Assembly: GCA_022652945.1 (NCBI GenBank) | Contig: JALCRV010000002.1 | Location: 124,001-188,000, forward strand | Direction of reading: 5' to 3' | DNA length: 64,000 nt | Source: Bacilli bacterium | Lineage (GTDB): Bacteria > Bacillota_I > Bacilli_A > RFN20 > CAG-288 | Shown here: piece by piece, positions 47,412 to 64,000 of the stretch | How positions within the stretch are numbered: the first letter of the stretch is position 1 | How the letters are laid out: every line of letters begins with the position of its first letter | The notes under the pieces: generated by a model | What the model was told of the DNA's origin: nothing | Databases searched by the model: none | The model's input: only the letters and a program-made list of their open reading frames with translations | Position numbers and translations under genes: made by a program

Positions 47412-48890
47412 TTATTCGTCTAAATGATTGCTGCTTTTAAGATAAAAAGTATTAATCACATCGTTATTTCCGTCGCACTCAATAATCTTTCGTATATATG
47501 TGTTTTTCAACCAATAGCATTGTTTTGTGAAGGATGTTTGGCCAGTCAGTTTATCTCTTTTTGGGAGCTCCGCCACATCTTTTTTATTTAATCCTTTTGG
47601 ACGAATATGGAAAATAGGACTGTCACCCATTCCAGGGAAATTATTTAAGACTATTTCTTTTCCATCTTTCGTTTGCTTCTTTCCAGAAATAACTGAGCCT
47701 GTTTGGAGAATGTCCCGAGTCTTTTTCCATACTTCATAAACGTATGTGTTAAGAATTGATTCGGGCATATTCCAAATGAATATTTTATAGAAATAATAAT
47801 CTTGACCGTTGTTCTTTAGGCAAACAAATAAGAACCTTTTTTCACTGAAAGTCTTATAAAAAGGAGATTCGGTCCATTTTTGTTTACAAAGATTGCAAAA
47901 ATCAAAGTTTTCGAAAGACATGCTTTGCTCAATAAAGCCGTTTTCTTCAATGCGAATAGTCTTAGATTCGATATTTGCTTTTTCAAACTCGTCGGTTGAA
48001 TTAATATTTCCTCTTAGGCCAAGCATTCTACTTAGAAGTGTTGAAACGGCTTGCTTTGATTTAACATTAACAGAGTATTTTTGGCAGAGGTCAGTGAAAG
48101 AATAATCGAATGCTCCGACTTTTTTCAGCCTGTTAGTAATAACCTCGGCAAATGAATGACCCAAATCTTCATCTTTTAATAGGGACTCGGCTTTTGAACC
48201 ATTTGCTGATAGGCTTTCCAAGAAAATTTTGTTGATGAAGCTTCGCTTATAACAATATGCTCTAGGCTTTACTTTATTTATTCCATTAAAGCCTGTTGTT
48301 CTAACAGAGGAATTTTGACTTTTAGTGCATGCCGCAAGGTAATTTGTATCCGACTCTGAGATGTTAGCTTCTTGATTATTTGCTATTTTTTGATGTATTA
48401 ATTCCCAATCTTGCTTAATAATTTCTAAATCTTCTTTGCTGGCCTGATCCATAAGCTTATATAAAGAGTAATTAGAAATTATCCGCCTTAAATAGTCATA
48501 AGAATTGTCATCTGAATATTCATAGAAAAGCAGTAAGAGATTCAAGTCTTTATGACAAAAGGAACTTTTCTCAAAGGTCGTTTGTCCTTCGTCACGGTAG
48601 TTTATATCAGATAAAACAAGTCTTTCCTTTATAGATGTCGAGCCGTTTTTTAGGCGCTTATAACCCGCGGTTTTTATTTCAATTCCTAAATTGATAACAT
48701 CCGGATCGGGTAGTGAATTGTTTTTTATTCCAAAGACATTTTCTTGCACGAATTGACCAAATCCACCTTTGTTCCGATTTTGTGGAGTCTCATTATTACA
48801 AAAAGCGGACATCTTTTTTCCAAGTGAATACTGGGTTTGCTTAATTAATGATTCTTCAGTGGGATAATATCTGTCATTGTTTTCATTCAT
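47412..48890 (-). CDS. Sau3AI-like type II restriction endonuclease (GATC)
   Basis: A 492-aa endonuclease matching the Sau3AI/MutH architecture: an N-terminal MutH-like nuclease and a second, MutH-related half. The segment GGFGQFVQENVFG followed by PDPD and GIEIKT (near residues 44-75) has the D...ExK catalytic triad. Sau3AI cuts before GATC; the same specificity is inferred here and supported by the adjacent methyltransferase of matching type. The ATG at 48890 is 6 nt from an extended -10 (TGATATAAT), so the mRNA should be leaderless; the TTG at 48896 lies too close to the -10 to be transcribed. The gene looks more AT-rich than its neighbours, suggesting transfer. Confidence 0.85.
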   Translation of the reverse strand: MNENNDRYYPTEESLIKQTQYSLGKKMSAFCNNETPQNRNKGGFGQFVQENVFGIKNNSLPDPDVINLGIEIKTAGYKRLKNGSTSIKERLVLSDINYRDEGQTTFEKSSFCHKDLNLLLLFYEYSDDNSYDYLRRIISNYSLYKLMDQASKEDLEIIKQDWELIHQKIANNQEANISESDTNYLAACTKSQNSSVRTTGFNGINKVKPRAYCYKRSFINKIFLESLSANGSKAESLLKDEDLGHSFAEVITNRLKKVGAFDYSFTDLCQKYSVNVKSKQAVSTLLSRMLGLRGNINSTDEFEKANIESKTIRIEENGFIEQSMSFENFDFCNLCKQKWTESPFYKTFSEKRFLFVCLKNNGQDYYFYKIFIWNMPESILNTYVYEVWKKTRDILQTGSVISGKKQTKDGKEIVLNNFPGMGDSPIFHIRPKGLNKKDVAELPKRDKLTGQTSFTKQCYWLKNTYIRKIIECDGNNDVINTFYLKSSNHLDE

Positions 48891-48896
48891 AAGCAA

Positions 48897-48961
48897 ATTA
48901 TATCAAAATTGTGCTTTTTAAGTATTTCGATCTTCACAACAGCGTCTCCATCTGCTAAAAT
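48897..48961. promoter_or_regulatory. divergent promoters of the restriction-modification pair
   Basis: Minus strand: extended -10 TGATATAAT (48905-48897). Plus strand: TTCACA (48933-48938), 17 nt, TAAAAT (48956-48961) for the methyltransferase. A GATC (48929-48932) abuts the plus-strand -35 box, so methylation of the system's own target could influence transcription. Confidence 0.6.
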
Positions 48962-48990
48962 GATAGGGCGTTATTAAAAGAGGTGTCTTT

Positions 48991-50229
48991 ATGGATAAGA
49001 CTGTTGCAGAGCTCTTCGCGGGGGTTGGCGGTTTCCGTGTCGGAATGAATAATGTGACACTTAAAAATGGCCAGACACATGAATCAGCAACTTTTAAGTT
49101 CGTTTGGTCCAATCAGTGGGAACCGGGTGCCAAAAATCAATATGCTTTTGATTGCTATAACAAAAGATTTAATGGCGGCTCGGAAAACACAAATATTGAT
49201 ATTGCAAAAGTTGATAAAACGACGATTCCTGACCATACAGTTCTTTGTGGCGGTTTCCCTTGTCAGGATTATTCAGTCGCAAGGTCTTTATCTCAAGAAA
49301 AAGGTATTGAAGGGAAAAAAGGTGTTCTATGGTGGGAGATCAATTCTATTTTAAAAGCTAAAAAGCCTCCTTTTGTTTTCTTGGAAAACGTTGACAGGCT
49401 TTTGAAATCGCCGCATAAGCAAATAGGACGTGATTTTGGCATAATGCTTCGCTGCTTTTATGAACAGGGATATGGTGTTGAATGGCGAGTCATCAATGCA
49501 GCAGAGTATGGTTTCACCCAAAGGCGACGCAGGACTTTTATTTTTGCTTTCAGAAAAAACACAAAGTTCTTCGCTGATGAGCTTCAGAAGTCACCAAAAG
49601 ATGTTTTTCTAAAAGATGGAATTTTTGCTCGCGCTTTCAAAGTGAAAAACAAAGATAATATTATTTCAGAGATTGAAATAAAGAAACCTAAAGATATGGT
49701 CGAGTTTTCTGATTCTTTTAAAGCTGACTTTAAAAACTCTGGATTTATGATTGATGGGGTTGTATATACGACTAAAACATTCCCTGTGGCCGAATCCCCA
49801 ATCACCTTGAGGCAAATGGTTGAGGAAAATGTTGATGAACATTATTATCTTGATTCTTATGCCCGGGAAAAATTCATCTACCTTCGTGGCAGGAAAAAGA
49901 TAGAAAGAACTAGTAAGGATGGACATAAATATTTCTATTCGGAAGGTTCAATGTCTTCTGTGGATTCATTAGATTTACCAGGTCGAACTATGCTTACAAG
50001 TGAAGGATCGATTAATCGCAGCACGCATATTATTGTTGATCCTCAAACTAACAGAGAGAGAATTCTTACGCCGGTTGAATGCGAAAGACTAAACATGTTT
50101 CCAGATGGGTGGACTGATACTGGCATGCCTGAAAAAATGAGATATTTCATCATGGGGAATGCATTGGTTTGCGGGATTATTAAAAGAGTTGGCAGACAAA
50201 TCTCGAAGATTATCGATCAAGAGGCTTAA
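48991..50229 (+). CDS. DNA (cytosine-5) methyltransferase, M.Sau3AI-like
   Basis: A 412-aa C5-cytosine methylase that protects DNA from the adjacent nuclease, presumably at GATC. Motif I is ELFAGVGGFRVGM, motif IV CGGFPCQDYSVAR with the catalytic Cys, motif VI FLENVDRLL, motif VIII TQRRRRTFIF, motif IX TPVECERLNMFPDGW, and motif X MGNALVCGIIKRV. The target-recognition region is residues ~200-310. An AGAGGTG ribosome site precedes the ATG. It is transcribed away from the nuclease, about 100 bp apart. Confidence 0.93.
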   Translation: MDKTVAELFAGVGGFRVGMNNVTLKNGQTHESATFKFVWSNQWEPGAKNQYAFDCYNKRFNGGSENTNIDIAKVDKTTIPDHTVLCGGFPCQDYSVARSLSQEKGIEGKKGVLWWEINSILKAKKPPFVFLENVDRLLKSPHKQIGRDFGIMLRCFYEQGYGVEWRVINAAEYGFTQRRRRTFIFAFRKNTKFFADELQKSPKDVFLKDGIFARAFKVKNKDNIISEIEIKKPKDMVEFSDSFKADFKNSGFMIDGVVYTTKTFPVAESPITLRQMVEENVDEHYYLDSYAREKFIYLRGRKKIERTSKDGHKYFYSEGSMSSVDSLDLPGRTMLTSEGSINRSTHIIVDPQTNRERILTPVECERLNMFPDGWTDTGMPEKMRYFIMGNALVCGIIKRVGRQISKIIDQEA

Positions 50230-54889: not shown

Positions 54890-56722
54890 ATGTCAGGAAA
54901 GACTAAGGCTCTAAAAAGTTTACTATGTATCTTATCTTTAATCTCTCTAACCGGATGTGGTCAAAGTGAAGATAACCTTTCTAATTCAACCGCTTTAAGC
55001 AAGGATCAGGAATTTTCTTACTGGTTGGGAACCGGGGAGAATGTTTCCTATTATCCGACTTACGCTGACAATCCCTGTCTCAAGTATCTGACCAACACTA
55101 AAAAATGGGGAACCAATCAGGCTAATATCAAGTTCTCCTTCCGCACTCCGCCCAGCGGAACGCAGACTAGCGATATTGTCACGATGTTCGGAACGGATGA
55201 TCTAAGTGATATTATTGACTTCAGTTTCTATAAAGGCCAAGCCTCGATGGAGGATCTTTATAATAACAACACTTTGCTTGATCTCACCGAATATGTGGAA
55301 AACAAAATGCCCAACTATAAGAAATGGCTGGCTGACCATCCGGATATCGCTAAATACTATATCGATCGTGTCGGGGACACCAAACGATATATGGAGCTAT
55401 ATTCGTTCAATGATAGTGTCGTTCCTTTCTGGGGCTACTGCTATCGGAGAGACTGGCTGGTGGAATACGGCACAAACCCGACAACCGGGAAGGCTTTTAC
55501 CGGTGGCTGGCAAAACGGCAAATGGTCGGACGATGTCGTCTTTCCTTCCAAATTGACTTATCCGAAATACATTTCGGACTGGGAATGGATGCTGGACATT
55601 TTCAAGAAAGCTGTCAGCGCCAAAGCCATCAGCGACGGTTATCCGATGTCCTTATATTATACGGGCGCTAACCCTAACGGTGATCTTGTCAGTTCCTTTG
55701 GAGGTGGGGGCAGCTTTTTCTATAACGATAACGGCACGATTGAGGTAGGCACCACTTCTGATAACATGCGCGTCTACCTTACCTGTATGAATAAATGGTA
55801 TCAGAAAGGTTACATCGATAAGACTTATGCGGAACATACCTCCGATATGTTCTATGCGACCGACTCCAAGAAGATCCATGCGGGCAAAGTCGGGCTGTGG
55901 TACGGCCAAAGTGCGACTTTGGATAATTTCCTGGATATCTCGGAAGGAAAAGAAGATTCCGCGGAAAACGGCTATACCAAAGGAATCTGCGTTTTCGGTG
56001 CGCGCCAGCCAATCAATGATATTTACGGTGGAGAAGAGAATAAATACAAAGATCCTAATTGTTTCTATTCGCCTTCTTTAGAAGGGGCTCCGATCGTTAT
56101 CTCCTCCAAAGCGAAAAACAAAGATTTAGATGCCTTATTCTCCTTCCTCGATTACACGTTCTCAGATGAGGGAAAACTCCTGAATCAGTACGGATTGTCG
56201 AAAGCCCAGTATGAAGAGACTCAAGATTCTTTCTATACCGAACATAAATTAACTGATGGAGCTTATAGTTATGTTGACTCTCTGGGAAATAGTTATCAAG
56301 AAGGCGTTTCGGATAAGAAGCTTGTGAAGTTGAATCCGGTTTTATCATCCGATACCGCTTTATGGTCAGCTTCCAAGATGCTGAGGACCTTTGGAAGAAG
56401 GTTTGTCGATGAAGGAGAAAGAAAGTTCTCATATACCGACATTTATAATAATGCCCTCGATGAATGGCTGGTCTTTAAGAATAGCGGAACCCTCCAGACT
56501 TCTTTCTACGGTCAATTGAAATCCGAGGATGCCTTAAAATTCTCAACCTTTAACAGCGCTGCGAGCGAATTCTTATCCAAGAGTTTCCCGAAATTCATCT
56601 CCGGAGCGGTCGATATCGCTTCGGATGATAACTGGAACTCTTTCTGTACGGCATTAAAGAAAAGAGGCCTCGATAATGTCAAGGCCGCTTTACAGGAGAC
56701 GATGGATTACTTATCAGCTTAA
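54890..56722 (+). CDS. extracellular solute-binding lipoprotein (family 1)
   Basis: A 610-aa lipoprotein. The signal peptide ends in LTGC with the lipidated Cys at residue 23. The rest is a large ABC-type substrate-binding protein of the sugar/oligosaccharide class, like the LipO/YtcQ group (FYKGQASMEDLYNNNTLLDL, FGGGGSFFYNDNG, ISDWEWMLDIFKKA). No permease or ATPase gene is in the window, so it either feeds a distant transporter or acts in sensing with the kinase block downstream. A strong AAGGAGG ribosome site is present. It converges on an AraC gene. Confidence 0.86.
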   Translation: MSGKTKALKSLLCILSLISLTGCGQSEDNLSNSTALSKDQEFSYWLGTGENVSYYPTYADNPCLKYLTNTKKWGTNQANIKFSFRTPPSGTQTSDIVTMFGTDDLSDIIDFSFYKGQASMEDLYNNNTLLDLTEYVENKMPNYKKWLADHPDIAKYYIDRVGDTKRYMELYSFNDSVVPFWGYCYRRDWLVEYGTNPTTGKAFTGGWQNGKWSDDVVFPSKLTYPKYISDWEWMLDIFKKAVSAKAISDGYPMSLYYTGANPNGDLVSSFGGGGSFFYNDNGTIEVGTTSDNMRVYLTCMNKWYQKGYIDKTYAEHTSDMFYATDSKKIHAGKVGLWYGQSATLDNFLDISEGKEDSAENGYTKGICVFGARQPINDIYGGEENKYKDPNCFYSPSLEGAPIVISSKAKNKDLDALFSFLDYTFSDEGKLLNQYGLSKAQYEETQDSFYTEHKLTDGAYSYVDSLGNSYQEGVSDKKLVKLNPVLSSDTALWSASKMLRTFGRRFVDEGERKFSYTDIYNNALDEWLVFKNSGTLQTSFYGQLKSEDALKFSTFNSAASEFLSKSFPKFISGAVDIASDDNWNSFCTALKKRGLDNVKAALQETMDYLSA

Positions 56723-56737
56723 TATGCAGCTGATGCT

Positions 56738-57919
56738 TTATTGATGATTTCCGGACTGACGGCACTTCTTGGGCGTCAGTCCTTTATATTTCTTGAAGGT
56801 ATTCTGAAAGTAAGACTGGGAGGAGAAGCAGAGATATTCAGATATTTCCTCCAAAGGTTTCGAGGTGTACTTTAAAAGTTTCTCCGCTTCCTCGACTTTT
56901 TTCCTGTTCACATATTCCGGAATACTTTGGCCGGTCTCTTTTTTAAAGGTGGCGGACAGGTAGGAGGAAGAAAGGTGCAGGGACTTGGAAATAATCTGGG
57001 TGGTCAATTTCTGTCTGACATGCTCGGCGATAAAGATTCTGGCCCTGGCGACGGTCGGATTATAAGTGCCTTTGTCTTTATAGGAGCGGACTCTGCTTAG
57101 ATAATCCTGGATTGCTAAAGTGATGATTCCTTCGACTTCTTTCCCCTGGCTTGCTTGCTCGATTTTCTCGACGTAAATATCGTAGAGGAAAAAAGAAGCA
57201 TCAACCCCCATACCGCCCTCGATAGCTTTTCGGGAAATCAAAGTCAAAGTTGCTAAAGCCCGATCTTTCAAATGCCTCAATTTATCGACATTATAAAAGG
57301 AAGAACGCTCCTTGAAGATTTTTTCTTTGTTACTGCTGAAATCATTTAAGGTCCCTTCTTTGATCCCGTAGAGAAGTTTTTGCTCGAAATTATATGAGTC
57401 TTCCCCTCCGTAAGCCTCACCTTCTTTTTCTAAGGTTTCAGCCTCTTGATTCACGGTCTCTTTGCCTTGGAGATGTTCTTGATAGAAGGGAAGGAAATCC
57501 TCTTCTTTTATTTCCTGATGGTTGACGGTCGCTTCTAAGAGCATCTGAAGCTGGTATAGCTCTAAGAATGTTATTTGTTTTAATGATGAAAGATAGGAAG
57601 GAAACCAATCCTGACGCTCTTTTTGATTAAAGGAAGCTAAAACCGAACTGGCTTCTTGGCCATAGACGATAAACGGGCCGCTGATGATGACGAAAGGGGA
57701 ATCTTTGACGTCTAGCTCCGTCCAAAGCAACAACTCTTTATACGAATAGAAAGTCAGCCCCTTAAAAGAAATGATGGTCTTTGACGGAAGGGAAGATATA
57801 AATGATATATTTCTTTTCTCTTCTTCCTCCTCATCCTCTTTCAAGCCTTTAACAGCTAAAAAATGACTGTAAGGCCGAGCTACTTGGTTAAGGAGAAAAG
57901 ACAAAAACTGTTTATCCAT
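56738..57919 (-). CDS. AraC-family regulator
   Basis: A 393-aa regulator with the AraC DNA-binding domain in the last ~100 residues (IISKSLHLSSSYLSATFKKE, ISEYLCFSSQSYFQNTFKKYKGLTP). The N-terminal ~290 residues lack a domain that I recognise but follow the same layout as the glycan-operon AraC protein, including a central E-K-L-rich helical section (FEQKLLYGIKEG compared with LEKQLISLVKDG). Its target is probably the convergent solute-binding gene or the sensory block; neither is proven. No ribosome site is present. Confidence 0.88.
   Translation of the reverse strand: MDKQFLSFLLNQVARPYSHFLAVKGLKEDEEEEEKRNISFISSLPSKTIISFKGLTFYSYKELLLWTELDVKDSPFVIISGPFIVYGQEASSVLASFNQKERQDWFPSYLSSLKQITFLELYQLQMLLEATVNHQEIKEEDFLPFYQEHLQGKETVNQEAETLEKEGEAYGGEDSYNFEQKLLYGIKEGTLNDFSSNKEKIFKERSSFYNVDKLRHLKDRALATLTLISRKAIEGGMGVDASFFLYDIYVEKIEQASQGKEVEGIITLAIQDYLSRVRSYKDKGTYNPTVARARIFIAEHVRQKLTTQIISKSLHLSSSYLSATFKKETGQSIPEYVNRKKVEEAEKLLKYTSKPLEEISEYLCFSSQSYFQNTFKKYKGLTPKKCRQSGNHQ
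56753..56787 (+). terminator. terminator inside the 3' coding end of the convergent AraC gene
   Basis: GGACTGACG (56753-56761) pairs with CGTCAGTCC (56774-56782), then TTTATATTT. It would end the solute-binding transcript while encoding the last residues of the AraC protein on the other strand. Confidence 0.6.
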
Positions 57920-57932
57920 AATTATTGAATCA

Positions 57933-57960
57933 ATTATAACTTATCGTCCATCTTTTTCAA
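57933..57960 (-). promoter_or_regulatory. promoter of the second AraC gene
   Basis: Minus strand TTGAAA (57960-57955), 16 nt, TATAAT (57938-57933). The ATG follows 13 nt later, leaving a leader of only about 6 nt. Confidence 0.65.
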
Positions 57961-58233
57961 AAAGACAAAGGCTCATTATTATAAAAAGCCGATTTTATGG
58001 CCACTATTCATCTCACTTAAATGCCGGTTGTTTATGCCGTAACGCGAAGCCATTCAAGTTTATCAATTTTTCTATTAGCGGAGGGGAACAACTTTTGATC
58101 AAGAAATGGCAAAGTCTGGCCAAGTTCATTATTGTGCTATAAGCACATGCCCAAATGGGTCTGTCTTTACAATCCAGGCCGGAAAAAGTACACTATGGTA
58201 AAGATTTTATTTATTATTTTGAATAATTTAAAG
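57961..58233 (+). promoter_or_regulatory. upstream region of the sensory operon, with palindrome
   Basis: TGTGCTATAAGCACA (58133-58147) is a 6-3-6 inverted repeat and a possible operator. A 15-codon frame, TTG at 58095 after GGAGGGG, ends inside it; it might be a leader peptide but is too short to support. No clear promoter. Confidence 0.35.
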
Positions 58234-59340
58234 ATGGCAAGTAAACACCCAATTAAACACAGTTTTAATCTTTTGTTGATACTTGTCTTTTTAACTGGCT
58301 GCAATAGGAATTCTTACTTTGAGACTATCGATTATTCCAAACTTGTCGTCCTCGCTCAAAAGGAAGGCAAAATAAATTCTGCTGGGATGCCAGATACCTG
58401 GGCAAACTGGGGTGCCACTTGGAATGAACTAAGTCTTTTTTATAACTTAAACCATGCGGATGTGGATATGCGTTCCGGACAGGTCCTGGAAGGATTTGCC
58501 GAAGGGAACTATGACATCGGCGATGTCGGGCTTTCTTATGCGATTGAAGCTCGAAACCAAGGCTTGCTGGCCGGTTATAAGACCTCTTACTGGGACGAGA
58601 TCCCTTCCTGGGCAAAAGATGACAGCGGTGATTATCTGGTTTCTTTCACCGGGACGATGTCTCTTTTAATCAATAATTCCGTCCTGACGACTGAAGAGGC
58701 TCCCAAGAGCTTCGCCGACATTAAAAATGGCTCTTATAAAGTTGCAATCTCCAACGTCTTAACTGGTTATACGGGGCAATTTGCTGTCTATGCAGCCACG
58801 ATTGCTTTAGGAGGCAGCGCGGATAATTTAGACCCCGGCATTCAGTTCTTTAAAGATTTGGCCAAGGGCGGACGGCTGGTCGGAAAGACATCTGGATATG
58901 ACGATTTTATCGCTTCCGGGGCCGGTGTGATCTTCAAGTGGGATTTCGAAGCCTTGAATTTCCGCGATCAAGGGGCCGCTTTAACAACACCTGTCTCCTT
59001 ATCAGCCTGCATTCCTTCCGATGGCTCGGTCACCTCGGGTTACTGCACGATCATCAATAAACTAGCTAAAGATCCATATTCAGCAATGTTGACTAGGGAA
59101 TATGCTTTATCGGATGCTGGGCAACTGAATTTTGCGAAAGGCTATGCTACTCCTATCCGTTCGGTCAGACTTCCTTCGGACTTAGAAAATAAACGCATTC
59201 CCCATAGTCAATACAATCAAACACAGATTGATAACGGTGGAAAGTTCACCGTCGAACTCTCGACAAAGATCTCTTCTCTATGGAGCAAAGAGGTCTCTCC
59301 TTATTTGGCTTTGGAAGAAGAGGCTACTGAGATTATCTGA
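58234..59340 (+). CDS. solute-binding lipoprotein (PotD/FbpA type)
   Basis: A 368-aa lipoprotein. From the ATG at 58234 the signal peptide ends in LTGC with Cys at residue 23, identical in layout to the 54.9 kb protein; longer frames to 58132 would spoil it. The mature part is a class II periplasmic-binding fold of the iron/polyamine/thiamine group (EGNYDIGDVGLSYAIEARNQG, GTMSLLINNSVL, KGYATPIRSVRLP). Ligand unknown. No transport genes adjoin; instead a hybrid kinase starts 8 nt downstream, so ligand-dependent signalling through that kinase is likely, as in LuxP-LuxQ or XylFII-LytS. Confidence 0.82.
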   Translation: MASKHPIKHSFNLLLILVFLTGCNRNSYFETIDYSKLVVLAQKEGKINSAGMPDTWANWGATWNELSLFYNLNHADVDMRSGQVLEGFAEGNYDIGDVGLSYAIEARNQGLLAGYKTSYWDEIPSWAKDDSGDYLVSFTGTMSLLINNSVLTTEEAPKSFADIKNGSYKVAISNVLTGYTGQFAVYAATIALGGSADNLDPGIQFFKDLAKGGRLVGKTSGYDDFIASGAGVIFKWDFEALNFRDQGAALTTPVSLSACIPSDGSVTSGYCTIINKLAKDPYSAMLTREYALSDAGQLNFAKGYATPIRSVRLPSDLENKRIPHSQYNQTQIDNGGKFTVELSTKISSLWSKEVSPYLALEEEATEII

Positions 59341-59348
59341 AAGGGGCA

Positions 59349-61895
59349 ATGATGGATAGAAAAAAGAGACTGGCTTCCATAATCTACTCTACCGTCTTGA
59401 CTGCCTTTTTATTCGTGGCTACTGTTTTCAGTTCCTCTAAAGTAGTTTCTTCACCACGGATTAAAGAAGAAAATAGCACGACCACGACTTTGATTGGGCT
59501 TACTAACCCGGAGGAAGCCCCATTTTTCACGAATGATGAAGGCTATAAAGTCGGCTTAATCCCCGAATTAACCTCCTTGATCAACAGCAACCTTTCTCAA
59601 GCGGGAGCTAACATCCAAATTAAAATGATGGATGGGGTTTCCTCTTATGATGACTATAAATCTCACTTGGAGAAGGGAGATTTCGATTTGCTTCTCGATG
59701 CTACTGACTTAACTCCTCAGACATATATATCCGGATTTGATCTGACCAACACTTATCTGAAGGCCAGCTATTCAAAACTCTCTTTGAAGAAAACTTCAGT
59801 CTCGGTCACAAATGTCGCCGCCTTGTCCTCCTTGGCTTTAGGCGGACAATATGCCCATTCCTTCTATTACTCTGAACAGATCGACGAATTTTCTACCATA
59901 GATCAATGTTTGACCGCGGTGAAAAATCAGCAATGTTCGGCAGCCGTCATCAATTCTTTCTCCGCTCAGAAAATCATCAACTCTGATGTCCGCAACACTT
60001 ATGTCTCGGTTAAACTATCAGAAAACCCCTTAGAGATTAAAATAGGAGTCAAACAACAAGCCAGCAAAGAATATCTGACAAAACTGAATTCGGCGATCAA
60101 TTTAATCAGCGAGGATACGTATAATGCCTTAGTCTCGCGTTACTCCCATTTTATCGTTCCGTCTTTATCCTTCGCTGATCAGATTTATCTTAACCCGATG
60201 GCTTTCATTTTGACTTTACTCGGTGTCTTCTTGGTCTTGATTGCTTTTGGCATCATCACCATTAATTTCCGAAACCGCAAAACCATCGACCGAACCAAAA
60301 AGGAATTCGAGCGTTTTATCGCTTATGTCTGCCAAACCAATGAAGTCGTCTACGAAATCAACATGGCTAATAATACTAAAAGCCAGTATCGCTTAGTTAA
60401 GGGCAAAGTAACCAACATCTCTTCCGCTTATTCTAAACAGACTGATATTTTGGAGATGATAGCCCCTGAGGACCGTAAGGGCGTGGAAGAATGTTTCGAT
60501 GATACCGCCCTCAAAAATCTGATTCAGACTTCCGGGCAGACTTCTTTTGAAGCGAGGATTTACAATGAAAAGAACCAGATTATTTGGACTTACTGTATCC
60601 TTCAAGGCATCGCTCCGACCAAGAATAAGCCAGCTAGCTTTATGCTCTTCCTTCACACGATCGATGAGCAGAAAAGAAAGGAAGCCCAGGCGAAGCTCCT
60701 GTTAGAGAACGCTTTAAGCCAAGCCGAGGATGCTAACCGCTCGAAAAGCGATTTCCTGGCTCGTATGAGCCATGAAATCCGCACCCCTTTAAATGCCGTC
60801 ATCGGGCTTTCCTCAATCGCTAAGCATTACGAGAATGATCAGGCCAAAGTCGATGAATGTCTCGATAAGATTGAATCATCTTCCAAAGTACTTCTCGGTC
60901 TCATCAACGATATTCTGGATATGTCGGCGATTGAAAATAATAAATTGAAAATTTCCTACGAGGAATTCAGCCTAAGGAAGATCATCAACGATTTATATAA
61001 TATCTACCAGCCCCAATGCCAGGAGAAGGGCATTCAGTTAATTATCGATGGCACCATTCCCGATGAGACGCTTATCGGGGATTCCCTCAGGGTCAGCCAG
61101 ATTCTGTTGAATCTGCTATCCAATTCCTACAAGTTCACCCCGAAAGGCGGGCGGATTGGTATTTTGCTTAAACGAACTTCCAAGGATCAAAACCGGGTAT
61201 ATTACCGCCTCGAGATCAGCGATAACGGAGTCGGCATGTCCGAGGAGATGCAAGCGCGCTTATTCCGTCCTTTCGAGCAGGAAAACAGCGATACCGCTCA
61301 AAAATACGGCGGAAGCGGTTTAGGCCTTTCGATTGTGAAAAGCCTCGTCACGATGATGGATGGCACCATCGCTGTCAGCTCGAAGCTCAATGAAGGCTCT
61401 TCCTTCTCTATCAACCTTCCGTTTGGCTATCCTAAGGACAGCAAGGAAAATCTTTCCGAGGTAGATTTAAAGAATAAGGCTGCGCTCAAGCATTATGATT
61501 TCCACGGGGCGAAAATCCTGCTGGCGGAAGATAACCAGATCAATATGGAAATCGCCGTGGAGCTTTTGAAGATGGTTAATCTTTCTCCTGACTGTGCTGA
61601 GGACGGAGAGAAGGTCGTAGAGCTTTATCTAGAAGCGAAAGACAATTATTATAAGGCCATCCTTCTCGATGTCCAGATGCCGATTATGAATGGCTACCAA
61701 GCCTGCCGGACAATCCGTAAGGCGGATAAGCCGGATGCTAAGAACATCCCGATTTTCGCCATGACCGCTAACGCTTTCTCCGAAGATGTTACGAAAGCTT
61801 TGGCCGCCGGTATGGACGGGCATATTCCAAAGCCCATCGATTCTGCTCTGCTATATAAGGAACTGGACGAAGCGATCAATAGGAAAAAGGCTTAA
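59349..61895 (+). CDS. hybrid sensor histidine kinase with extracellular solute-binding domain
   Basis: An 848-aa membrane kinase. Order: membrane helix (~10-30), an extracellular SBP_bac_3-like domain (~45-275), a second helix (~285-307), a PAS-like domain (~325-440), HisKA with the phospho-His in RMSHEIRTPLNAVIG (near 473), HATPase (NLLSNSYKF, ISDNGVGM, GGSGLGLSIV), and a receiver with the acceptor Asp in LLDVQMPIMNGY (near 773). The kinase residues are complete. The layout recalls BvgS, without an Hpt domain. No response regulator with an output domain is in the window. It is co-transcribed with the binding lipoprotein. Confidence 0.92.
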   Translation: MMDRKKRLASIIYSTVLTAFLFVATVFSSSKVVSSPRIKEENSTTTTLIGLTNPEEAPFFTNDEGYKVGLIPELTSLINSNLSQAGANIQIKMMDGVSSYDDYKSHLEKGDFDLLLDATDLTPQTYISGFDLTNTYLKASYSKLSLKKTSVSVTNVAALSSLALGGQYAHSFYYSEQIDEFSTIDQCLTAVKNQQCSAAVINSFSAQKIINSDVRNTYVSVKLSENPLEIKIGVKQQASKEYLTKLNSAINLISEDTYNALVSRYSHFIVPSLSFADQIYLNPMAFILTLLGVFLVLIAFGIITINFRNRKTIDRTKKEFERFIAYVCQTNEVVYEINMANNTKSQYRLVKGKVTNISSAYSKQTDILEMIAPEDRKGVEECFDDTALKNLIQTSGQTSFEARIYNEKNQIIWTYCILQGIAPTKNKPASFMLFLHTIDEQKRKEAQAKLLLENALSQAEDANRSKSDFLARMSHEIRTPLNAVIGLSSIAKHYENDQAKVDECLDKIESSSKVLLGLINDILDMSAIENNKLKISYEEFSLRKIINDLYNIYQPQCQEKGIQLIIDGTIPDETLIGDSLRVSQILLNLLSNSYKFTPKGGRIGILLKRTSKDQNRVYYRLEISDNGVGMSEEMQARLFRPFEQENSDTAQKYGGSGLGLSIVKSLVTMMDGTIAVSSKLNEGSSFSINLPFGYPKDSKENLSEVDLKNKAALKHYDFHGAKILLAEDNQINMEIAVELLKMVNLSPDCAEDGEKVVELYLEAKDNYYKAILLDVQMPIMNGYQACRTIRKADKPDAKNIPIFAMTANAFSEDVTKALAAGMDGHIPKPIDSALLYKELDEAINRKKA

Positions 61896-62106
61896 ATAGT
61901 TTTTTGATTTCTATAAAGGTCTTCTTAAAGTTAATCTAATCAATAAAAGGTTGTCTGAATAATTGCTTTTTGGTCCTTTCTGAAAAAAATAAAAGCTGAT
62001 TAAGGTAAAGCGATTTAATAGTAAATCCGAAGGGTTTTGCCTTCGCTTTTTTAACTTTGATCGGTCGCTTGTCTTATAATAGAAAAGGTTAATTAATTCT
62101 CTGAAT

Positions 62107-63309
62107 ATGGAAATAGATTTACTCGGCCTCCTATCTAGATGTTCCCAGGCTCTGGATGTTTTTTATAATGATGAAGCGGGGGAAGAGGTAAATAACCGTA
62201 GTCAGCGTTTGGCCTTGATCAGCGTGAAGATGGCAAAAAACGAAGGCTGGAGCCAAGACAGGCTTTTCGATTTAGCCTCCCTTTCCTTGCTTTCCGCTTC
62301 CGCTTGGACTCAGATTTTAGGTGAGAATTCAACTTTCTCCAAGAGCGATCGTTTAGCGGATTTAAAGGAAAACCATTGCTTTCTAGCCGAAGAAAATGTG
62401 AAGCAGTACCCCTTTATGACTAATTATTGGCGGGGTGCTTTGCTTTATATGGACGAAAAAGTCAACGGTAAAGGTGTCTATCATCTAAAAGGCTTCCAGA
62501 CCCCCTTATTCGCTCGGTTTATCCATACCGCTTCGGAAGCGGATAAGTACTTTATCTCGAAAGGGAAGAATATCTTAGCTTACGATGGAATGCTTAAAGT
62601 CCTCCATGCGGAAGCGGGAAACGAAGTGGATGAGGATGATACGGATATTTTATATTCCGCCTTCTCCGCCTTATCCTTCAATAAACTTTATAAAGGAGAT
62701 CTGACCGAACAAATCAGAAAAGAAGTCGGTATCTATAAGCTTGATCTTTCTTATGAGACCATTAAAAAGATCGTTCTCCTTTACGCTAAAATCATCGACT
62801 ATAAATCTTCCTTCACCAGACTGCACTCTACCTGGACGGCCGCCAAGGCTTTCGCCCTTGCCAATCTTTTAGGATATAAACCGGAAGAGAGCTATAACCT
62901 CTGCTATGCCGGGGCCTTACATGATTTCGGATTGATGTATGTGCCCAATACCATCCTTGAGAAACCTTCTAAGCTTTCCGATGAGGAATATCAACAGATG
63001 ACATCTCACGTAACCTATATCGATTCCTTATTGGATGGAATCCAAGGTTTGGAGACTGTCAGGAGCCTATGTGCTTCTCACCATGAAAGAATCGATGGCT
63101 CCGGGTATCCTTATCATTTAAGCGGGGAAAAATTAAGCCGCGATCAAAGACTTCTCGCGGCTTTAGATGTCTACCAGGCTTTAAGAGAAGAAAGACCTTA
63201 TCGTAAAGCGATGGGCCATGAGATGGCTGTCGCTTTGATGAAAGAGATGGCTAACGACAGGAAATTAGATGAAGAACTGGTAGAGAAAATAGGGGAAAAA
63301 ATGAAATGA
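62107..63309 (+). CDS. HD-GYP domain protein, predicted c-di-GMP phosphodiesterase
   Basis: A 400-aa soluble protein. The C-terminal HD-GYP domain has ALHDFG (metal-binding His-Asp, near residue 274) and ASHHERIDGSGYP (near 325), both complete, so cyclic-di-GMP hydrolysis is expected. The N-terminal ~220 residues are helical with no receiver or PAS domain that I can recognise. A TATAAT at ~62075 suggests its own promoter. No GGDEF or EAL gene is present in the window. It follows the hybrid kinase by 211 bp and may belong to the same signalling unit. Confidence 0.88.
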   Translation: MEIDLLGLLSRCSQALDVFYNDEAGEEVNNRSQRLALISVKMAKNEGWSQDRLFDLASLSLLSASAWTQILGENSTFSKSDRLADLKENHCFLAEENVKQYPFMTNYWRGALLYMDEKVNGKGVYHLKGFQTPLFARFIHTASEADKYFISKGKNILAYDGMLKVLHAEAGNEVDEDDTDILYSAFSALSFNKLYKGDLTEQIRKEVGIYKLDLSYETIKKIVLLYAKIIDYKSSFTRLHSTWTAAKAFALANLLGYKPEESYNLCYAGALHDFGLMYVPNTILEKPSKLSDEEYQQMTSHVTYIDSLLDGIQGLETVRSLCASHHERIDGSGYPYHLSGEKLSRDQRLLAALDVYQALREERPYRKAMGHEMAVALMKEMANDRKLDEELVEKIGEKMK

Positions 63310-63557: not shown

Positions 63558-64000
63558 ATGGGAACTTATAATTTCAAACGACTGAATCTAATACTTACAA
63601 CCTTGGGAATTGTCTCCACAATGTCCATCGGGTTTTCAACTTGGCTGATTACTGGGAATGATGTAGTAACTGCGACGACGATGAACATTTTTACTGAACC
63701 TGTTGTGGCAACTGTTTATAGGCTGTTTAGTTATGATTCAACCAATTCAGTAAATCTCATTTATATTTCCGAATCTTTTTGGAAAGATAGCAGCCCGAGT
63801 TTTAAAGGGAGCCTTACTAGCGCTTTTACCGCTGTTGATGTTGTTACATCTGGGAAGGTCTTTAACTACAAAATAACCTTCACTCCAAAAACAGGTTATA
63901 CACCTTCTATTTCTTTGACTGATGGATCTTTGATACCTGTTCCTACTTATCAAATCACCGCTCCTATTAATTCGAATACATCATCGACTTCTGCAAGCAC
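63558..64000 (+). CDS. exported protein, N-terminal part only
   Basis: From ATG at 63558 the frame stays open to the window end (147 codons). The N-terminus is a basic stretch plus one hydrophobic helix (LILTTLGIVSTMSIGFSTWLI), a signal peptide or anchor whose FSTW end recalls SipW-type exported proteins. The rest is rich in Ser, Thr and beta-strand pattern, as in surface proteins. The ribosome site is weak (AAGGACG, 14 nt upstream). Family not identifiable from this part. Confidence 0.65.
   Translation, partial: MGTYNFKRLNLILTTLGIVSTMSIGFSTWLITGNDVVTATTMNIFTEPVVATVYRLFSYDSTNSVNLIYISESFWKDSSPSFKGSLTSAFTAVDVVTSGKVFNYKITFTPKTGYTPSISLTDGSLIPVPTYQITAPINSNTSSTSAS

Follow-up and report, generated by a model that had tools for sequence, protein, structure and literature searches.

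We analysed a 64,000-nucleotide (nt) stretch of a Bacilli bacterium genome (GenBank assembly GCA_022652945.1, contig JALCRV010000002.1, positions 124,001 to 188,000; hereafter the window), with emphasis on a block at window positions 54,890 to 63,309 in which the gene of a solute-binding protein (SBP), SBP2, directly precedes that of a hybrid histidine kinase. A second SBP gene (SBP1), an AraC-family regulator gene and an HD-GYP gene complete the block. Our analyses suggested that SBP2 stems from an importer family and probably acts as a sensor for the adjacent kinase. The source is a draft genome of 2.1 Mb in 20 contigs, 92.7% complete; protein functions were assigned by homology, and genome-wide counts were taken from family searches, not from annotation. 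The pair is laid out as follows.

58234..59340, + strand: SBP2, SBP_bac_6 lipoprotein (Pfam, 5t1p match, importer-family relatives, conservation, tree)
59349..61895, + strand: hybrid histidine kinase of 848 amino acids (open reading frame (ORF) calling, Pfam, residue reading)
59478..60176, limits approximate, + strand: extracellular Venus-flytrap (VFT) domain of the kinase, VFT2-like (homologues, AlphaFold2 (AF2) model, Foldseek to BvgS 4q0c/3mpk)
60741..60938, + strand: kinase HisKA domain (Pfam PF00512, residues 465-530)
61077..61424, + strand: kinase HATPase_c domain (Pfam PF02518, residues 577-692)
61515..61865, + strand: kinase REC domain (Pfam PF00072, residues 723-839)

An earlier sequence-only reading of the window had called two solute-binding lipoproteins in this block, and both calls stood with unchanged coordinates, each protein carrying an LTGC lipobox. 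The Cys codon of SBP2 lies at 58300-58302; its frame is open from a TTG at 58132, and the candidate starts are ATG 58197 or 58234, the choice between them being unproven. SBP2 is a member of SBP_bac_6 (Pfam E 1.1e-16), its nearest PDB chain is 5t1p (E 1.8e-76), and it shares 40-48% identity with its relatives across most of its length. A search of 84,980 species genomes yielded 293 confirmed relatives, and the neighbours of the best 80 were inspected. Permease genes, mostly in the order perm1-perm2-ATPase, were found downstream of the SBP gene in 79 of these 80, often with a PF01663 phosphodiesterase gene in between, and in the remaining one (L056) the contig stops right after the SBP gene. 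The importer parts of the relatives gave best or near-best scores with 2-aminoethylphosphonate systems, all below the cut-off. Judged by homology, the SBP2 family, a 5t1p/PhnS-like class, is a family of ATP-binding cassette (ABC) importers; for its Pseudomonas aeruginosa relative (PA3250), no ligand was found in the literature.

Of 110 columns with at least 95% conservation among 84 relatives, SBP2 itself retains 81, MPDTWANW included, and it departs from the family consensus where DMSSAEE has become DMRSGQV and GDV..A.QAQ has become SNVLTGYTGQ. In the tree it is isolated at the end of a long branch, and branch length by itself is weak evidence; no SBP2 relative was detected among the other 195 close relatives searched. 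The GC and GC3 contents of SBP2 and the kinase are near the window average, so composition lends no support to a recent horizontal transfer of the pair; an older transfer or loss may still have taken place, given the absence of SBP2 from close relatives. Unlike its importer-family relatives, SBP2 has no permease or ATPase gene beside it, and by homology none of the 37 permease-domain matches in this incomplete genome looks cognate to it. The sequence-only reading had described both lipoproteins as lacking a permease; this holds locally for both and, as far as homology shows, genome-wide for SBP2, while permeases of the LplB/YtcP type present elsewhere may plausibly serve SBP1.

ORF calling placed the kinase 8 nt behind SBP2, as had been reported, and its HisKA, HATPase_c and REC domains were confirmed. 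The protein runs from a first transmembrane segment (TM1, residues 8-34) through a single VFT, a second segment (TM2, about 280-309) and a PAS-like region to HisKA (His475), HATPase_c and REC (Asp774); the H-box, N-box, REC Asp and Lys are all present, and it carries no Hpt domain. Only one domain-sized ectodomain fits between TM1 and TM2. This sensor matched nothing in Pfam even at E 10 and nothing in plasmids. Its homologues, drawn from 395 genomes of the class and similar along the length of the domain, are the VFT2 of tandem SBP_bac_3 sensors (best E 9e-16), the second, membrane-proximal flytrap of proteins whose outputs are of the hybrid kinase, GGDEF or EAL type. An AF2 model from a 10-sequence alignment including VFT2 homologues reached pLDDT 74 and pTM 0.65, while an alignment of only three sequences failed (pLDDT 35). 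Foldseek with this model returned amino-acid-binding proteins and BvgS (4q0c at rank 3), and the comparison with BvgS VFT2 (3mpk) gave a target TM-score of 0.74 and an rmsd of 3.5. Homology and the predicted structure thus indicate a lone VFT2-like Venus-flytrap domain, in agreement with the extracellular binding-type domain proposed earlier.

This assignment rests on the class-genome homologues and the Foldseek search of the model, not on weaker profile comparisons; a profile iterated from a pair of SBP_bac_3 kinases matched the kinase sensor only weakly, and hhalign gave a probability of 45%. The matches of another profile search, dominated by two clear SBP_bac_3 rows, were set aside, and L193 was dropped as a sensor homologue, showing only a weak, below-cut-off Lig_chan match. 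Amino-acid-binding members of the family have a T-x-x-R motif whose Arg binds carboxylate; the ectodomain has T-P-Q-T in the alignment and is thus unlikely to bind a canonical amino-acid ligand. Of the two stacked ligand sensors suggested earlier, the flytrap fold is present in the kinase, but its standing as a sensor is uncertain, and by its residues it may serve for docking and transduction only.

The combination of a lipoprotein and a hybrid kinase recurs in this genome, where three more hybrid kinases adjoin a same-strand lipoprotein. The lipoprotein is of the SBP_bac_1 family and 20 nt from the kinase on contig C18; on C1 it has 618 amino acids, overlaps the kinase and gives no significant Pfam match, with weak similarity to an SBP_bac_8 protein; and on C7 it is an SBP_bac_8 lipoprotein with a 5'-nucleotidase C domain, again overlapping the kinase. 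Unusual fusions of SBP_bac_8 with a 5'-nucleotidase C-terminal domain were seen in lipoproteins at L152:3877-5766 and L199:6714-8597, each adjoining a hybrid kinase.

Beyond this genome, 13 genomes from a single family within the order have an SBP gene next to a hybrid kinase, usually with a 4-nt overlap at the kinase end or divergently beside the kinase start. A REC-GGDEF-EAL gene belongs to the operon in 9 of the 13, and a recognised Hpt gene also in 7 (several contigs end inside the operon); three of the effector proteins were typed by Pfam and the others were assigned through a BLAST match to one of these. The conserved gene set of hybrid kinase, SBP_bac_1 lipoprotein, REC-GGDEF-EAL and Hpt was observed in L226, L230, L231, L234, L237, L209 and L239. 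Judged by gene content, this order-level operon is the best evidence that an SBP lipoprotein, a hybrid kinase, an Hpt and a cyclic di-GMP (c-di-GMP) enzyme plausibly form one pathway in the lineage, and no description of it was found in the literature searched, the coverage of which was incomplete. If it is one pathway, it would be a compact link between a solute outside the cell and c-di-GMP, in Bacilli that have been little studied. The binding-protein/kinase pairing put forward by the sequence-only reading is thus backed by the importer-family nature of SBP2, the three further pairs and the 13 order relatives.

HATPase_c and REC matches share a frame at 13 places, giving 13 hybrid kinases (one a short frame of 327 amino acids), and hybrid-kinase-like frames are spread over C1, C2, C4, C7, C8, C9, C11, C17 and C18. 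A search for the Hpt and the response regulator, recommended earlier, returned one detectable Hpt in the genome, at C1:133856-134047, which adjoins a GGDEF gene downstream of the C1 lipoprotein-kinase pair, and one protein that combines REC, HD-GYP and GGDEF (C3); in all, 11 GGDEF domains scored above the cut-off. Because one Hpt stands against 13 hybrid kinases, these results suggest that the kinases converge on a shared Hpt; a further Hpt may also have escaped detection through sequence divergence or an assembly gap.

With an SBP gene beside a membrane kinase and no dedicated permease found by homology in the 92.7% complete genome, the SBP2-kinase pair appears to belong, as a variant, with the known SBP-dependent sensor kinases of the LuxPQ, TorTS, HptAS and CuaDS type. 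LuxP-LuxQ-LuxU-LuxO of Vibrio shares a separate binding protein, a hybrid kinase without its own Hpt and a separate Hpt, and the core of the window kinase matches the corresponding region of the LuxQ model; the match is limited to residues 453-839, however, and its 315.7 bits do not reach the cut-off of 1200 of the LuxQ equivalog NF041947. In addition, the LuxQ ectodomain is PAS-like rather than a flytrap, and LuxP and SBP2 are of different SBP classes. TorT-TorS-TorR likewise couples a hybrid kinase to a periplasmic binding-protein-like partner, but TorS has an Hpt in cis and another ectodomain fold, and its model matches only the core of the window kinase, below the cut-off. BvgS also carries an Hpt in cis. 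BvgS and EvgS resemble the window kinase in the membrane-proximal VFT2 before TM2, PAS, HisKA and REC, which the model matches to 4q0c/3mpk also reflect; BvgS holds tandem VFT1-VFT2 in cis (PMC4352136), whereas in the window kinase a single VFT stands without an Hpt, and a lipoprotein is provided in trans. By model score and domain make-up the window kinase is neither a LuxQ equivalog nor a tandem-flytrap kinase.

HptS, unlike the window kinase, is not a hybrid kinase. In HptA-HptS-HptR of Staphylococcus aureus, HptA is secreted and binds a phosphorylated solute, and ligand shifts its contact toward the membrane-proximal part of HptS (PMC8774646). HptA is absent from the PDB sequence matches of SBP2 and of its family profile and is thus not a close sequence relative. 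In CuaD-CuaS-CuaR of Clostridia, CuaD binds CuaS and raises sensitivity (PMC10384115); this system and the clostridial XylFII-LytS also have an extra, sensing-dedicated SBP encoded beside the kinase, but their SBPs bind sugars, their two-component systems are non-hybrid and their ectodomains differ. As for the output, an external binding protein governs a c-di-GMP enzyme in NspS-MbaA (PMC8967002), where NspS acts directly on the GGDEF-EAL protein with no kinase, and in Hk1-Rrp1 a hybrid kinase with periplasmic sensor domains lies beside the response regulator of a c-di-GMP pathway (PMC4013479), with sensor domains and Hpt both in cis, unlike the window kinase. Compared with these two systems, we only infer the kinase-to-c-di-GMP step in the window genome.

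We propose that the ancestor of SBP2 was the solute-binding component of an ABC importer akin to phosphonate (PhnS-class) systems, and that SBP2 would now be a membrane-anchored extracellular sensor and would form, together with the kinase, one ligand-sensing phosphorelay input. SBP2 is read as a sensor because the kinase, only 8 nt behind, takes the place of the permease, no cognate permease was found and the lipoprotein-kinase pairing recurs, and we consider it quite probable that SBP2 is the signalling partner of the adjacent kinase. By analogy with HptA-HptS, CuaD-CuaS and BvgS VFT2, the likeliest mechanism would be ligand-dependent docking of SBP2 on the single membrane-proximal flytrap, altering kinase activity, with SBP2 in trans standing in for VFT1, the distal flytrap present in cis in tandem BvgS-like kinases. 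Phosphate would then pass from His475 to Asp774, on to a separate Hpt (the sole one detected is encoded elsewhere) and to a response regulator, the most plausible final target being the genome's one REC/HD-GYP/GGDEF protein and, through it, c-di-GMP control. Such wiring from SBP through kinase to c-di-GMP is plausible because of the three further pairs and the order-level operon; c-di-GMP as the output of the window kinase in particular is a tentative proposal that we place somewhat short of an even chance. For the combined SBP2/kinase/c-di-GMP explanation, scored as to its core, our estimate is about 0.6; the genes with their domains and order, the kinship and fold of the VFT2-like domain, the importer-family kinship, the recurring pairing and the number of Hpt matches were observed directly, and ligand class, docking, phosphotransfer partners and output are what we infer for this system. 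SBP2 comes from an importer family that is widespread and poorly characterised, and a kinase holds the permease position behind it, which makes the repurposing of an SBP as a sensor open to comparative study, and its ligand is directly testable with the purified protein. More speculatively, and in our view rather unlikely, hybrid kinases in this order may use binding lipoproteins, here one taken from an importer family, as distal sensing modules that can be detached, with several pairs in one genome feeding one Hpt and a single c-di-GMP regulator; if true, extracellular nutrient sensing would be wired to c-di-GMP through a many-to-one phosphorelay.

Several points weigh against this explanation. 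There is no direct evidence for a c-di-GMP step in the window, where the HD-GYP protein has no REC domain and its gene is set off from the kinase by a terminator-like hairpin. The SBP of the order-level operon is SBP_bac_1 and not SBP_bac_6, so that for the window pair the operon is evidence by analogy. Neighbourhood conservation, named earlier as a check, held for lipoprotein-kinase pairing as a pattern, but the exact SBP2-kinase pair was present in no other genome searched; a kinase-linked relative could sit among the 293 relatives outside the 80 inspected for neighbours. The sequence-only reading had also named what would speak against it, namely permeases for both lipoproteins elsewhere and an unconserved pairing; such permeases are plausible for SBP1, and the pairing is nonetheless conserved as a pattern. 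Finally, the portion absent from the draft assembly could hold a permease cognate to SBP2.

Among the alternatives, a sensor pair whose output is transcriptional, through a DNA-binding response regulator acting on uptake genes rather than c-di-GMP, is a real possibility, although we hold it below even odds. HptASR and CuaDSR regulate uptake genes (PMC8774646, PMC10384115), and several of the genome's non-hybrid REC proteins are encoded in short frames, of about the length usual for DNA-binding regulators; on the other hand, the order-level operons unite a hybrid kinase, an SBP, an Hpt and a REC-c-di-GMP enzyme, and the sole detected Hpt adjoins a GGDEF gene. That SBP2 still serves transport, its permease being encoded at another locus or hidden by an assembly gap, is unlikely; in this reading the kinase would sense its own ligand through its own flytrap, and adjacency would reflect co-expression only. 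The conserved importer-family columns kept by SBP2, the many permease-domain matches in an incomplete genome and the kinases that here also adjoin complete importers (L107: kinase, SBP, fused permease, ATPase) are consistent with transport, but permease genes come directly after the SBP in the SBP2 family, no family-type permease was found, the closest to perm1 among those read (L108, E 1e-17) already has its own SBP and ATPase, and the permease-free pairing is repeated in the genome and the order.

The other features of the block are listed below.

54890..56722, + strand: SBP1, family-1-like lipoprotein (paralogue searches, weak PDB matches)
56738..57919, - strand: AraC-family regulator of 393 amino acids, convergent with SBP1 and divergent from SBP2 (ORF calling, Pfam)
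62028..62045, + strand: terminator-like hairpin with a T run behind it, in the gap separating the kinase and HD-GYP genes (by consensus match alone)
62107..63309, + strand: HD-GYP protein without REC (Pfam, 5z7c alignment; membership of the kinase pair unproven)

The single sensory block assumed in the sequence-only reading, which had overlooked the AraC gene between the lipoproteins, was not upheld. SBP1, whose weak PDB matches are family-1 SBPs, has seven further matches in the genome at 41-48% identity, about 10 copies in all with those in fetched regions; some 10 AraC paralogues, often divergent, lie beside these copies, glycoside hydrolase genes are near some, and the copies are located away from kinases. 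Only weak SBP1 matches were found in relatives (3/146), and on this evidence the SBP1/AraC set is a species-level expansion almost absent from the 146 relatives. Across L262, L263, L264, L265, L266 and window 54890-57919, about ten SBP1-type lipoproteins (600 amino acids) and about ten AraC regulators were seen, all in one genome of 2.1 Mb. LplB/YtcP-type permease pairs are present in the genome, and C12 carries a permease pair and an ATPase gene without a recognised SBP alongside five SBP1 copies; the copies possibly share the permease at C12:35913-37874. SBP1 and its AraC gene are most likely a separate sugar-uptake cassette, and from its paralogy we judge SBP1 to be outside the kinase system.

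The HD-GYP gene follows the kinase, with no GGDEF adjoining the block, as described earlier (HD_5, E 4e-34). Its nearest solved structure, 5z7c, is a 3'3'-cGAMP phosphodiesterase (E 6e-31), which does not imply the same substrate, and the alignment indicates two HD-GYP halves in tandem, the first of them degenerate. H240, H272, D273, H301, H325, H326 and D354, which we take to be metal ligands, are present, and the Lys of HDxGK is replaced by L. The gap to the kinase measures 211 nt and contains the hairpin and T run; such hairpins are not enriched in the region (9 against 7.6 expected by shuffling), and this one is only suggestive of a terminator. The tie between HD-GYP and the pair rests on proximity and is unproven, with no REC in the protein and a hairpin in between; the gene is probably transcribed separately from the kinase, its product being at most a member of the same c-di-GMP network. 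A single sensory unit spanning the entire block, with SBP1 and HD-GYP as members, is highly improbable, since proximity and the shared strand of all genes but AraC are outweighed by the kinase-free paralogue family of SBP1 and AraC, the opposite-strand AraC gene between SBP1 and SBP2, and the distance, hairpin and 38% paralogue without a neighbouring kinase of HD-GYP.

Two further observations were made by eye in the window. At 47412-50229, a DNA cytosine methyltransferase-like gene (+ strand) is divergent from a gene of 494 amino acids, maybe its restriction enzyme. At 63558-64000, the next gene after HD-GYP begins, and its N terminus resembles that of a SipW-type secreted surface protein.

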